From positions 1 to 64,000 of the forward strand of contig JAFRGM010000006.1 in the NCBI GenBank assembly GCA_017433855.1: a stretch of 64,000 bases of DNA, given 5' to 3'. Under the pieces are notes generated by a model that was given only the letters and a program-made list of their open reading frames with translations, did not search any database and was not told where the DNA came from. Both the position numbers and the translations under genes were made by a program. Positions 8,074 through 53,778 of the stretch are shown here, piece by piece. This stretch comes from Candidatus Saccharimonadota bacterium (GTDB lineage Bacteria; Patescibacteriota; Saccharimonadia; Saccharimonadales; Saccharimonadaceae). Position 1 is the stretch's first letter, and each line of letters begins with the position of its first letter.

Positions 8074-9138
8074 ATGGCAAATGCCAAAAAATATACAATG
8101 GATGAGTTACTTTCAGACGAAAGTGCATCCAAGAAAGCCATTGCAGGGGACACCGTTACTGGTAAAGTCATCGCTGTTAAAAAGCACGAAATCTTAATCG
8201 ATCTCGGTGCGCAAGGTGTGGGGCTTGTGCCTCGCCGCGAAGCATCCTTTGCTCGCAATCTTAATGTTGGGGACGAGGTTTCTGCATCAGTTATTGATGC
8301 TGAAATGGACGACGGGTATGTCCTCCTCTCCCTCAGAAAAGCTGTCAAGGATAAAGGCTGGGACGAGATTCAGGCCAAGCTCGACAATGCCGAGACGGTC
8401 GAAATCACCCCATTTGACGCCAACCGTGGCGGTCTATTGGTGGAATATGAAGGTATCCGCGGCTTCTTGCCGGTATCGCAACTTTCCGCAGAGCATTATC
8501 CACGTGTTGGTAGTGCCGATAAAGACGAAATCTTGCAGCGTTTGAATTCGCTCGTTGGCAAGCAAATCAAAGTTCGCATCCTAGATGCCATTAAGAAAGA
8601 GAACAAACTTATCTTCTCTGAAAAAGAGGCTATCAAAGATGGTCTCGCTGAGCGCTTTGCCGAACTCAAAGTCGGCGACATCGTCAAAGGTGTAGTAACC
8701 GGTGTAGTAGATTTCGGCGTTTTTGTGAATGTCGACGGCATCGAAGGTCTAGTCCACATTTCCGAGATTTCTTGGGAGCGTGTCAACAATCCTTCTGATT
8801 ACGTTAAGGTCGGCGATGAAATCGAAGCTAAGATTATTGCCATTGACAAAGAGCGCCTTTCGCTCTCTATGAAACAGCTCGTGGAAGATCCATGGCTCAG
8901 CGAAGTCGAGAACCTCAAAAAAGGCGACAAGGTAGAAGGTACGGTTACCCGTATAACTCCATTTGGCGCATTCGTGCAGATTAGCCCAGCCGTAGAGGCC
9001 CTTGTGCACGTCTCTGAGCTTGGCGAAGGCTCTGATGTAGATCCAGAGAAGGTATTTACTCTCAATGAGCGCAAGTCCTTCAAGGTCTTAGACATCGATA
9101 AGGACGGTCGTAAAATTTCGCTATCTATTGCGAAATAA
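8074..9138 (+). CDS. rpsA: 30S ribosomal protein S1, four-domain form
   Basis: The protein has 354 residues with four S1 (OB-fold) repeats, at about 22-90, 105-180, 197-267 and 283-353. The last two carry the typical pattern D-F-G-V-F-V-x-V-D-G-I-E-G-L-V-H-I-S-E and its variant F-G-A-F-V-Q-I. S1 binds mRNA at the 30S subunit and helps initiation. E. coli S1 has six repeats and 557 residues, so this is a reduced form, like those of Firmicutes and other Patescibacteria. It is a single-gene unit with its own promoter and terminator. Confidence 0.9.
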   Translation: MANAKKYTMDELLSDESASKKAIAGDTVTGKVIAVKKHEILIDLGAQGVGLVPRREASFARNLNVGDEVSASVIDAEMDDGYVLLSLRKAVKDKGWDEIQAKLDNAETVEITPFDANRGGLLVEYEGIRGFLPVSQLSAEHYPRVGSADKDEILQRLNSLVGKQIKVRILDAIKKENKLIFSEKEAIKDGLAERFAELKVGDIVKGVVTGVVDFGVFVNVDGIEGLVHISEISWERVNNPSDYVKVGDEIEAKIIAIDKERLSLSMKQLVEDPWLSEVENLKKGDKVEGTVTRITPFGAFVQISPAVEALVHVSELGEGSDVDPEKVFTLNERKSFKVLDIDKDGRKISLSIAK

Positions 9139-35795: not shown

Positions 35796-37436
35796 ATGGT
35801 CACACATATCGCGAAATTATTAATAACAACACTTAGCCTAGTAGGCTTTACTGGTATCACTGCATTGCTGTGTCTTCCTGCCTCTGCGGCCGATAATGCC
35901 TCGGTTAACACTACCATTCTAGTCAACACCGCCTGTGGTATGACTGCCACTACCAATGCTGCCCACTCGGCAGTTCTGACTAACGGTAGTGAAAAGACTG
36001 GTATAGGTACTACTACCATTGCAGTTACCTGTAATGATGCAGCTGGTTTTGCTGTATATGCAGTAGGCTATGCCAACACTACGCTAGGTAATAATAATCT
36101 AGTAGGCACTCACAGTAACATCCCCACTGGTACTGGCACAGCATCATCAAACTGGGGTATGAAACTGACTTCTGTAAATAGTGAACGTCCTATCACTATA
36201 GAAAGCGACTATAGTGACTACGGTATAGTCCCAAATGAGTTCACCATGGTAGCTCACCGTGATGCTGCTACAGACCCAAATGGTGCTGCTTCTAGTATCA
36301 CTACTACTTACCGTGCTTACGTTTCTCCCACCCAAGCCGCAGATGTCTACCATGGAGTAGTACGTTATGTCTTAGTTCACCCATCTACTGTTAGCCCAGT
36401 GTTTAGCTTTGATGATGCTTTTCTAGCTGCTGGTAAAGAAAAAGTTACAGCAAATGATGGTAACAAGTACTATGCTATGCAAGATATGACTACAGATATT
36501 TGTAGTAGAATCTTAGCCTTTGACGATGAAGCTAAATTAGTAGACACCAGAGATGGTAAAACCTACTTCGTAACTAAGGCTCGTGATGGCAAATGCTGGA
36601 TGACACAGAACCTAAACCTAGATATTACTATTCCATCCTACGCCGAAGATAACGACCCATCTACCACTTATATTGCGCTTAATTCCAACAATACTGACCT
36701 TAACATCTACGAAGAAGCTGGTCTATATTCCGCAACGAGTGGCTATAGCTATGAGAACGATGTAATTAAATGGACGCCCAGCATGGCAACCTATAAGAAT
36801 GATGCCACGCACGAGAATGGCGAAGCTACGGGCAGTATCACTAGTGGCAATGATTATAACAAACCTCGCTCCTGGAGCCTCACCGTAAACAACAAGGATG
36901 TTTATCAGAAGGGCACTACTTTCACCTCTGCTGGTTGTAACTACTTTACAGACGCCAACTGCGTAGGCGCAAATAAGACCTTTAATACTGAACCCTTCGC
37001 AGAAAACGGTATGCACGGGCATCTTGGTAATTACTATAACTGGACGGCAGCGATTGCCACTAATGATTCGTCTAGCCTAACCGAGAATACTCATACCAAC
37101 ACTGCCATGAATCCAAATAATTCTATCTGCCCTAAGGGATGGAGATTGACTAGAAGTGCTAGTGACGCATCCTATAATGACTTTGCTTACTTGAGAGTAC
37201 AGTATAGTAATAGTAATAGTAATACCTACATGCTATACAGCCCTCTATGGTTTGTGCGCGCAGGCCGCGTCTTCAGTGGCTCGCTTAACAACAGCGGCGA
37301 CATCGGCTACTATTGGTCGTCTACGGTCTATGATGCTAACCTTGCGTACGACCTGGACATCAGTAGTAGCGGTTTCGGTCCGTCCAGCACCAACTATCGC
37401 TTCGTCGGGTTCTCGGTGCGTTGCATGGCGCGGTAA
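35796..37436 (+). CDS. FISUMP-domain secreted surface protein with variable-region-like tail
   Basis: The protein has 546 residues with a signal peptide (about 1-31, ending in A-S-A). The N-terminal ~200 residues are Thr/Ser/Asn-rich and probably a beta-sandwich. A FISUMP domain (Fibrobacter succinogenes major paralogous domain, TIGR02145) follows, with A-M-Q-D-M-T near 227, G-K-C-W-M-T-Q-N-L near 265, I-C-P-K-G-W-R-L near 443, and a C-terminal W-S-S-T plus G-F-S-V-R-C. The last 60 codons are GC-richer and look like a retroelement variable region. It is probably a surface binding protein; the anchor is not visible. GAGG lies 4 nt before the ATG. Confidence 0.8.
   Translation: MVTHIAKLLITTLSLVGFTGITALLCLPASAADNASVNTTILVNTACGMTATTNAAHSAVLTNGSEKTGIGTTTIAVTCNDAAGFAVYAVGYANTTLGNNNLVGTHSNIPTGTGTASSNWGMKLTSVNSERPITIESDYSDYGIVPNEFTMVAHRDAATDPNGAASSITTTYRAYVSPTQAADVYHGVVRYVLVHPSTVSPVFSFDDAFLAAGKEKVTANDGNKYYAMQDMTTDICSRILAFDDEAKLVDTRDGKTYFVTKARDGKCWMTQNLNLDITIPSYAEDNDPSTTYIALNSNNTDLNIYEEAGLYSATSGYSYENDVIKWTPSMATYKNDATHENGEATGSITSGNDYNKPRSWSLTVNNKDVYQKGTTFTSAGCNYFTDANCVGANKTFNTEPFAENGMHGHLGNYYNWTAAIATNDSSSLTENTHTNTAMNPNNSICPKGWRLTRSASDASYNDFAYLRVQYSNSNSNTYMLYSPLWFVRAGRVFSGSLNNSGDIGYYWSSTVYDANLAYDLDISSSGFGPSSTNYRFVGFSVRCMAR
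37254..37433 (+). repeat. Variable-region-like tail, copy 1
   Basis: These 180 bp align without gaps to 53596-53775. Invariant blocks (TATTGGTCGTCTACGGTC and GGGTTCTCGGTGCGTTGC) flank codons that differ at positions 1 and 2 while most third positions (C or T) are unchanged. This is the pattern expected when AAY codons in a template are mutated at adenines. Confidence 0.6.
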
Positions 37437-52104: not shown

Positions 52105-53778
52105 ATGGTCACACATATTAAAGCGAGATTATTAATAGCTACACTCAGTTTAGCCGTAGGCATAAGTGTTGGTGCTTCCCTGTGTTCTTCTGCATTCGCA
52201 GCGGTTGTCACTTCTTCCACTGCTACAGTCAACGTCTCTACTTCATGTAGTATGACGGCAACTATAAATACACAACATACTGCCAATCTAGTAAACGGTC
52301 AGGAGAGTACGGCGGTAAGCTCGTATTCTAGTGGTATAGGTAAAACTACCATTGCTACTACTTGTAACGATACTAATGGCTTTTCTATCTATGCTGCCGG
52401 TTACACTGGCGATAAAGTAGGTGCTGCCAATAGTACTAAGCTAGTGGGTGTAAATACTGGTGTTACTATTCCCACCGGCTCTGGCACCTCTGCCTCCAAC
52501 TGGTCCATGAAGATCACTGCTGCTTCAGGTGCTACTAATATGGTCCCCGCCACTATTGACAATGGCTTTGATGAGTACAGTCTAGTACCAAGTAACTATA
52601 CTAAAGTAGCTCATGTCACTACTGCCACCTACCAAGGTGCCCCTACCCAAATTACCACCACCTACCGTGCATATGTATCCCCCACCCAAGCTGCAGATTC
52701 CTATTCTGGCAAAGTTCGCTATGTCCTCATTCATCCATCTTCTGCTGTAGCCCAAGCTACCTTTGATTCTGCCTTCGCTAACGCTGGCAAATCCAAAGTC
52801 ACAGCAAATGATGGTAATGAGTATTATGCTATGCAAGATATGACTGCAGATATCTGCAATGGTGTAGTAGATTACGGTACAGAAACACAATTAGTGGATA
52901 CCCGTGACAAAAAGCTCTACTGGGTCCTTAAAGCTCAAGATGGTAAGTGCTGGATGACACAGAATCTAGACCTAGATCTAAAGACCGATGTGGCGCTAAC
53001 ATCTCTCAATACTGACCTCAACGTCCATGATGATGACATCTACAATGAGAACTTAGGCTATACCTACAATGAATCTACTGGCCTCATCACCTGGACCCCT
53101 AGCTCACCAACAAATACATCTAATGCAACGCACGCGAATGGTACTGCTACCGGCACTTCTATAAGCTGGTCAAACACGAATACTACCCCACGCTCCGTAA
53201 AACTTACCGTCAACGGTAGTGAAATCTACCAAAAGGATGGCTCTACCTTCTCCTCAGCCACTTGCAACTACTTCACTACCCCATCCTGTCTCAACTCCAC
53301 CGGAGACAACACCAATACCACTGCTAACTTCTCCACAGTACCATACGAAGCTAACGGTGAACATGGTAAGGTTGGTAACTACTACAACTGGTCTGCTGCG
53401 GTAGCATCTAATAACACATCCTCTAGAACAGCCAGTACCTATAATGCTATTGCCGAAAGTCCAAAGAACTCTATCTGCCCTAAAGGTTGGCGCTTAACCA
53501 GAAGCTCTTCTACTCCAGCTTATAATGATTTCCAGAACCTTTATTCAGCATATTCTAGTTCTATTGGTAAAGCTAATGGCTACCCTCTATGGTTAGTGCG
53601 CGCAGGCGGCGTCGACAACGGCACGCTCGGCGGTAGCGGCGACTACGGCCTCTATTGGTCGTCTACGGTCAATAGCGCTAGCAACGCGTACTACCTGAAC
53701 ATCCGTAGCGACTATTTCTATCCGTCCCTCAACCGCAATCGCGGCCGCGGGTTCTCGGTGCGTTGCGTGGCGCGCTAA
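52105..53778 (+). CDS. FISUMP-domain secreted surface protein 2, variable-region-like tail
   Basis: The protein has 557 residues and is a full-length paralogue of the protein at 35796. It has a signal peptide (about 1-32, ending in A-F-A), a Thr/Ser-rich N-terminal domain sharing T-T-T-Y-R-A-Y-V-S-P-T-Q-A-A-D, a FISUMP domain (A-M-Q-D-M-T, G-K-C-W-M-T-Q-N-L, I-C-P-K-G-W-R-L), and the tail W-S-S-T ... G-F-S-V-R-C. The final 60 codons are GC-rich and differ from copy 1 mainly at exposed-looking positions. The first ~20 bp of coding sequence are nearly identical to copy 1, continuing the leader homology. Confidence 0.8.
   Translation: MVTHIKARLLIATLSLAVGISVGASLCSSAFAAVVTSSTATVNVSTSCSMTATINTQHTANLVNGQESTAVSSYSSGIGKTTIATTCNDTNGFSIYAAGYTGDKVGAANSTKLVGVNTGVTIPTGSGTSASNWSMKITAASGATNMVPATIDNGFDEYSLVPSNYTKVAHVTTATYQGAPTQITTTYRAYVSPTQAADSYSGKVRYVLIHPSSAVAQATFDSAFANAGKSKVTANDGNEYYAMQDMTADICNGVVDYGTETQLVDTRDKKLYWVLKAQDGKCWMTQNLDLDLKTDVALTSLNTDLNVHDDDIYNENLGYTYNESTGLITWTPSSPTNTSNATHANGTATGTSISWSNTNTTPRSVKLTVNGSEIYQKDGSTFSSATCNYFTTPSCLNSTGDNTNTTANFSTVPYEANGEHGKVGNYYNWSAAVASNNTSSRTASTYNAIAESPKNSICPKGWRLTRSSSTPAYNDFQNLYSAYSSSIGKANGYPLWLVRAGGVDNGTLGGSGDYGLYWSSTVNSASNAYYLNIRSDYFYPSLNRNRGRGFSVRCVAR
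53596..53775 (+). repeat. Variable-region-like tail, copy 2
   Basis: These 180 bp are collinear with 37254-37433. About two dozen of 60 codons differ, nearly all at positions 1 and/or 2, with only a few third-position changes. Flanking blocks are identical. Serine, Asn, Tyr, Asp, Gly and Arg codons ending in C or T dominate the variable positions. Confidence 0.6.

Follow-up and report, generated by a model that had tools for sequence, protein, structure and literature searches.

The C-terminal tails of two FISUMP-family proteins encoded in the window (the whole stretch of 64,000 nucleotides that was analysed), together with eight further FISUMP-family tails dispersed over a Saccharibacteria-like genome of about 0.6 Mb, are very probably variable regions (VRs) of a diversity-generating retroelement (DGR), with a probability of about 0.93. 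This reading is adopted because the template region (TR) of a near relative predicts which columns vary among the ten tails and because complete DGRs occur in the genus. One lineage of templates probably wrote all ten copies in trans.

FISUMP genes and their variable tails

The following features are encoded in the window, all of them on the forward strand:

35796..37436, + strand: FISUMP 1, probable DGR target gene (546 aa), an open reading frame with the FISUMP domain TIGR02145
37245..37436, + strand: VR of FISUMP 1 with its flanks, delimited by blastn to the nine other copies in the genome; GC content 0.57, against 0.43 in the gene body
37266..37406, + strand: hypervariable core of this VR, with NNY codons where the templates of relatives have AAY
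37311..37328, + strand: conserved anchor TATTGGTCGTCTACGGTC (YWSSTV) inside this VR, near-identical in all ten copies
37407..37436, + strand: conserved GC-rich 3' end of this VR, up to the stop codon, kept in the ten copies while the downstream DNA differs; by its position, a putative initiation-of-mutagenic-homing site
52105..53778, + strand: FISUMP 2, second probable DGR target gene (557 aa), an open reading frame with TIGR02145
53587..53778, + strand: VR of FISUMP 2 (core 53608-53748), delimited by blastn, by codon columns and by the template adenines of relatives

The two proteins score 45.6 and 58.7 bits with TIGR02145, for which the curated cut-off is 41.65 (NCBIfam), and FISUMP 1 scores under the cut-off of Pfam PF09603. 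The N-terminus of FISUMP 1 is signal-peptide-like (judged by eye) and, combined with the hypervariable C-terminus, suggests a secreted recognition protein. The C-terminal domain would form an extracellularly exposed binding surface of C-type-lectin-like fold. An AlphaFold2 model, built from only the two window sequences, has a mean pLDDT of 31.7.

An earlier note on this DNA, made from the letters alone, had described the final 60 codons of FISUMP 1 and FISUMP 2 as aligning without gaps, with about two dozen differing codons, mostly changed at positions 1 and 2. The gap-free alignment is confirmed, as is the preference for the first two positions (22, 17 and 7 differences at positions 1, 2 and 3 over the 60 codons), and the four codon pairs that it quoted (TTC/GAC, GGT/TAT, AGC/CTC, AAC/CGC) are all present; many codons differ indeed, the exact count being 28 of 60. 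Its observation that the tail is GC-richer than the rest of the gene holds for FISUMP 1, and its starting point at 37254 has to be moved, since the similar stretch begins about 9 bases earlier, at 37245. An even spread of the variation over codon positions, which it had named as a refuting outcome, is not seen. Over the whole VR alignment the differences amount to 22, 17 and 8 at codon positions 1, 2 and 3, whereas the rest of the gene has 154, 131 and 243, position 3 being the most divergent one outside the tail (Fisher p = 9e-5 for the contrast between VR and rest).

The assembly that holds the window comprises 596,208 bases in 11 contigs and is 85.76% complete. A blastn search with the tail recovered ten full copies in this genome, namely three on the window contig (at 37k, 53k and 65k), three on contig C8, three on C2 and one on C4. 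All ten are the 3' ends of FISUMP-family genes, and the DNA 3' of their stop codons differs from copy to copy. Column-wise comparison of the copies shows that the variable codons are of the form NNY, with a third base that is mostly a fixed C or T and only in few cases A or G, and that near-invariant codons (GTC, GGC, TAT TGG TCG TCT ACG) stand between them. For the nine copies whose gene body is available, divergence at codon positions 1, 2 and 3 is 0.28, 0.24 and 0.52 in the body and 0.31, 0.25 and 0.15 in the VR, and the synonymous difference at identical residues falls from 0.44 in the body to 0.13 in the VR of these nine genes. In the close pair formed by FISUMP 1 and the C4 copy, 13% of the residues differ in the body and 40% in the VR. 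A FISUMP paralogue on contig C11 of the same genome (L010 689-1972) is without a variable tail.

Adenine targeting predicted by templates of related genomes

The position of the variation was compared with templates from other genomes of the genus, so that the test is not circular. With the template of the relative G318, 50 of the 56 columns that carry a template adenine are polymorphic among the ten VRs, versus 42 of the 133 other columns (p = 7e-14), and the mean pairwise difference between the ten VRs is 0.53 at the adenine columns versus 0.11 at the others. The templates of G181, G328 and G248 agree with this result (p range 1e-11 to 7e-14), the tests with G181 and G318 not being independent, as these two templates are nearly identical. 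At codons that are AAY in the G318 template, 186 of the 200 cells have C or T as the third base, and the residues encoded there are mainly Tyr, Asn, Ser, Gly and Asp. The adenine-directed mutagenesis of AAY codons that had been proposed from the two window genes is thus strongly supported, since template adenines of relatives predict the variable columns here.

In the mechanism summarised for DGRs in PMC8144416 (mutagenic retrohoming), the DGR reverse transcriptase (RT) would copy a template RNA whose variable codons are AAC or AAT, and would misread the template adenines by promiscuous incorporation. The mutated cDNA would then take the place of the 3' end of each target gene, so that some 20-25 codons become NNY and the remaining bases are those of the template.

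DGR cassettes in the genus

TR- or VR-like DNA is present in 117 of 174 genomes of the genus, and an RT of a single family, detected with a genus RT profile, in 97 of the 174. The RTs of relatives carry the motifs IGNxTSQ and YVDDF; indeed, IGN..SQ and YGRYVDDF are invariant in 21 aligned RTs of the genus. The best PDB match of the genus RT is 8ub7, a 328-residue RT with IGSLTSQ, which is presumably the RT of Bordetella phage BPP-1. In those cassettes that were examined, the order is a target gene with its VR, an accessory ORF, the RT gene and the template. The accessory ORF that precedes the RT encodes about 290 aa; one copy weakly resembles Avd, with E = 0.007, which falls well short of the cut-off, and a PDB profile search with the accessory protein returned chance-level matches only.

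An RT, a TR and a VR with adenine-only TR-VR differences occur together in G318, G328 and G181, of which G318 and G328 are the nearest relatives in the genus according to topA (about 75% nucleotide identity). Beside the RT, the VR differs from its template at 20 of 59 adenines and 0 of 151 other bases in G318, at 23 of 59 adenines and 0 of 151 other bases in G181, and at 23 of 60 adenines and 0 of 142 other bases in G328. VRs at a greater distance in these three genomes show adenine changes together with rising numbers of other changes; in the two least aged remote VRs of G318, 8 of 116 and 15 of 144 non-adenine positions are mismatched.

Among the 33 distinct RT loci for which a template was found, the template follows the RT in every case, on the opposite strand in 31 (33 of 35 when two loci that were counted twice are included) and on the same strand in the remaining two; opposite-strand templates are seen, for example, at L089, L195, L196, L197 and L198. 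In the opposite-strand arrangement, transcription of the template has to start at a promoter that points towards the RT gene.

A faded VR signature is still seen in several FISUMP tails (L237-L264) of the RT-less relatives G281, G311, G322 and G334, which are 95-98% complete, as though these genomes had lost the machinery. In the tail of another RT-less genome, G295 (L235 1486-1646), the first half is changed while the second half is still AAY-rich, as if it had been mutagenised only in part.

Search for the RT and the template in this genome

The earlier note saw neither an RT nor a template in the window, assumed action in trans, and recommended a genome-wide search. No RT was detected in the 85.8%-complete assembly, either with PF00078 or with the genus RT profile at E<=10, and no template was detected there by blastn with the VR and the inferred TR, which returned only the ten VRs and trivial matches. 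Absence of both from the complete genome, which the note had named as a further refuting outcome, is not fully applicable as a test to an assembly of this completeness. In G318, G328 and G181, the cassette is found next to ksgA and serS, and its template is separated from serS by one additional gene. In the genome studied here, ksgA is followed directly by serS (C11, L230 8319-9141; ksgA 8319-9119) and no cassette is present between them: this is an empty or emptied site. Absence from the genome is not thereby proven, because cassette sites vary in the genus and about 14% of the genome is missing.

The VRs themselves are aged. Each of them departs from the consensus at 4-9 of the 113-115 columns without a template adenine, and no pair is identical at these columns (3 to 17 of about 115 differ), so the ten VRs were not all recently rewritten from one template. 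None of the ten looks freshly written. The third VR of the window contig, just beyond the window (C5:65335-65529), contains a TAA at VR codon 16; this stop is read as decay, because an AAY codon cannot become a stop by adenine changes and a non-adenine change is needed. Action in trans is likely for the past, as ten dispersed genes carry the signature, but present action is not established, given the aged VRs and the stop codon.

Two accounts of the missing machinery were weighed, both within the DGR reading and both graded by judgement, not by computation; loss from the genome is somewhat more likely than location in the unassembled part. In the first account, to which slightly better than even odds are given, the cassette has been lost, and the ten VRs are decaying leftovers that may have been retained as an unchanging set of binding proteins. 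This would agree with the failure to find an RT or a TR in the assembly, with the empty ksgA-serS site, with the non-adenine departures in every VR and the stop codon in one, with the lack of an RT in 34 of the 117 genus genomes that have VR-like DNA, and with the four nearly complete RT-less relatives described above, which keep FISUMP tails with a residual signature. However, the assembly is incomplete and split into 11 contigs; one empty site proves little, because the location of the cassette differs elsewhere in the genus; and the case from ageing is weakened by the aged remote VRs of G318, a genome that still bears a cassette.

In the second account, a serious contender that falls short of even odds, the RT and the template, along with a pristine target, are hidden in the roughly 14% of the genome that is not assembled and go on diversifying the ten targets in trans. 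Across the genus, genomes with an RT tend also to have VRs (odds ratio 7.5), more than half of all genomes (97/174) carry an RT, and the FISUMP gene at the start of C8 is truncated by the contig edge, the break falling just before its VR. Remote targets served in trans have moreover been described for Thiohalocapsa PB-PSB1 (PMC10907252). Against this, the assembly covers most of the genome without yielding an RT or a template, and no freshly written VR is among the ten known.

Explanations without a retroelement are far less probable. Exchange of tails among paralogues by gene conversion, which would account for their likeness and leave their diversity to shuffling, is improbable as the sole cause. 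FISUMP 1 and the C8:0.1k copy do share several non-adenine states and are the closest pair at adenine columns (21 differences), but in every other pair the two VRs disagree at 24-45 of about 77 adenine columns, a variety for which shuffling alone is insufficient, and gene conversion has no adenine targeting. It may act in addition to the DGR. Ordinary divergence of paralogues under positive selection on a binding face is the least probable explanation and was rejected because of the pattern at third codon positions. The genes are indeed paralogous, and the prevailing variable residues would suit such a face, but selection at the protein level cannot freeze the third positions of codons that change at positions 1 and 2, cannot lower the synonymous difference within the same genes as observed, and leaves the predictive power of the relatives' template adenines unexplained.

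Comparison with known systems and significance

DGRs of Patescibacteria/CPR, FISUMP targets and remote targets are each already known. The DGRs of Patescibacteria/CPR form a known clade (clade 2, Roux et al. 2021, PMC8144416), which the system described here resembles in its small Patescibacteria cells, in its adenine-specific diversification and in the IGNxTSQ motif of the relatives' RTs, the likeness being drawn from these features. Clade 2 targets are usually without a recognisable conserved domain (PMC8144416), whereas the targets here have a FISUMP domain, and the RT and template are missing from the assembly, unlike in clade 2 DGRs. The domain counts of a 2014 study of human-microbiome DGRs include 9 Fib_succ_major and 47 DUF1566 targets (PMC4159848), that is, the same target domain family; these counts mention no dispersed family of ten targets like the one in this genome. 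In Trichodesmium erythraeum, 18 loci have TR/VR homology (PMC8867640), and in this organism, as in Thiohalocapsa PB-PSB1 (PMC10907252), several VRs lie away from the RT and are explained by trans action; the RT and TR are known and the VRs matched to them in these two organisms, while ten VRs in 0.6 Mb are found here with no RT or TR in hand. No paper was found that combines 'diversity-generating retroelement' and 'FISUMP' in the literature that was searched, the main DGR surveys being partly outside it.

The DGR of Bordetella phage BPP-1 shares with the relatives' systems an RT with the IGxxxSQ motif, in line with the PDB match given above. BPP-1 has its TR, RT and VR in the same orientation, the TR preceding the RT; unlike in that system, the TR follows the RT on the opposite strand at most loci of the genus. 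Editing by a reconstituted DGR works best on targets that run in the direction of replication (PMC12875486).

The features that set this family apart are the ten dispersed targets in 0.6 Mb, the convergent TR in most relatives and the aged VRs kept by RT-less relatives. A speculative and rather doubtful extension is that the cassette comes and goes in the genus while the diversified families stay, so that RT-less genomes keep a fixed FISUMP repertoire that a returning compatible cassette could rewrite in trans. Recognition of and attachment to hosts by very small, probably host-attached bacteria is largely an open question, and ten secreted-looking proteins with tails that appear to be machine-randomised are direct candidates for the recognition of hosts or phages. 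Many DGR targets will escape surveys restricted to the neighbourhood of the RT.

The exact anchor pattern was also searched in wider collections. In genome contigs it matched FISUMP-like tails of two MAGs that bear the label Candidatus Saccharibacteria; together with the genome size, these tails suggest that the genome studied here also belongs to Saccharibacteria. The remaining matches in genome contigs are mostly scattered, without a TR or an RT, and viral contigs gave no match.
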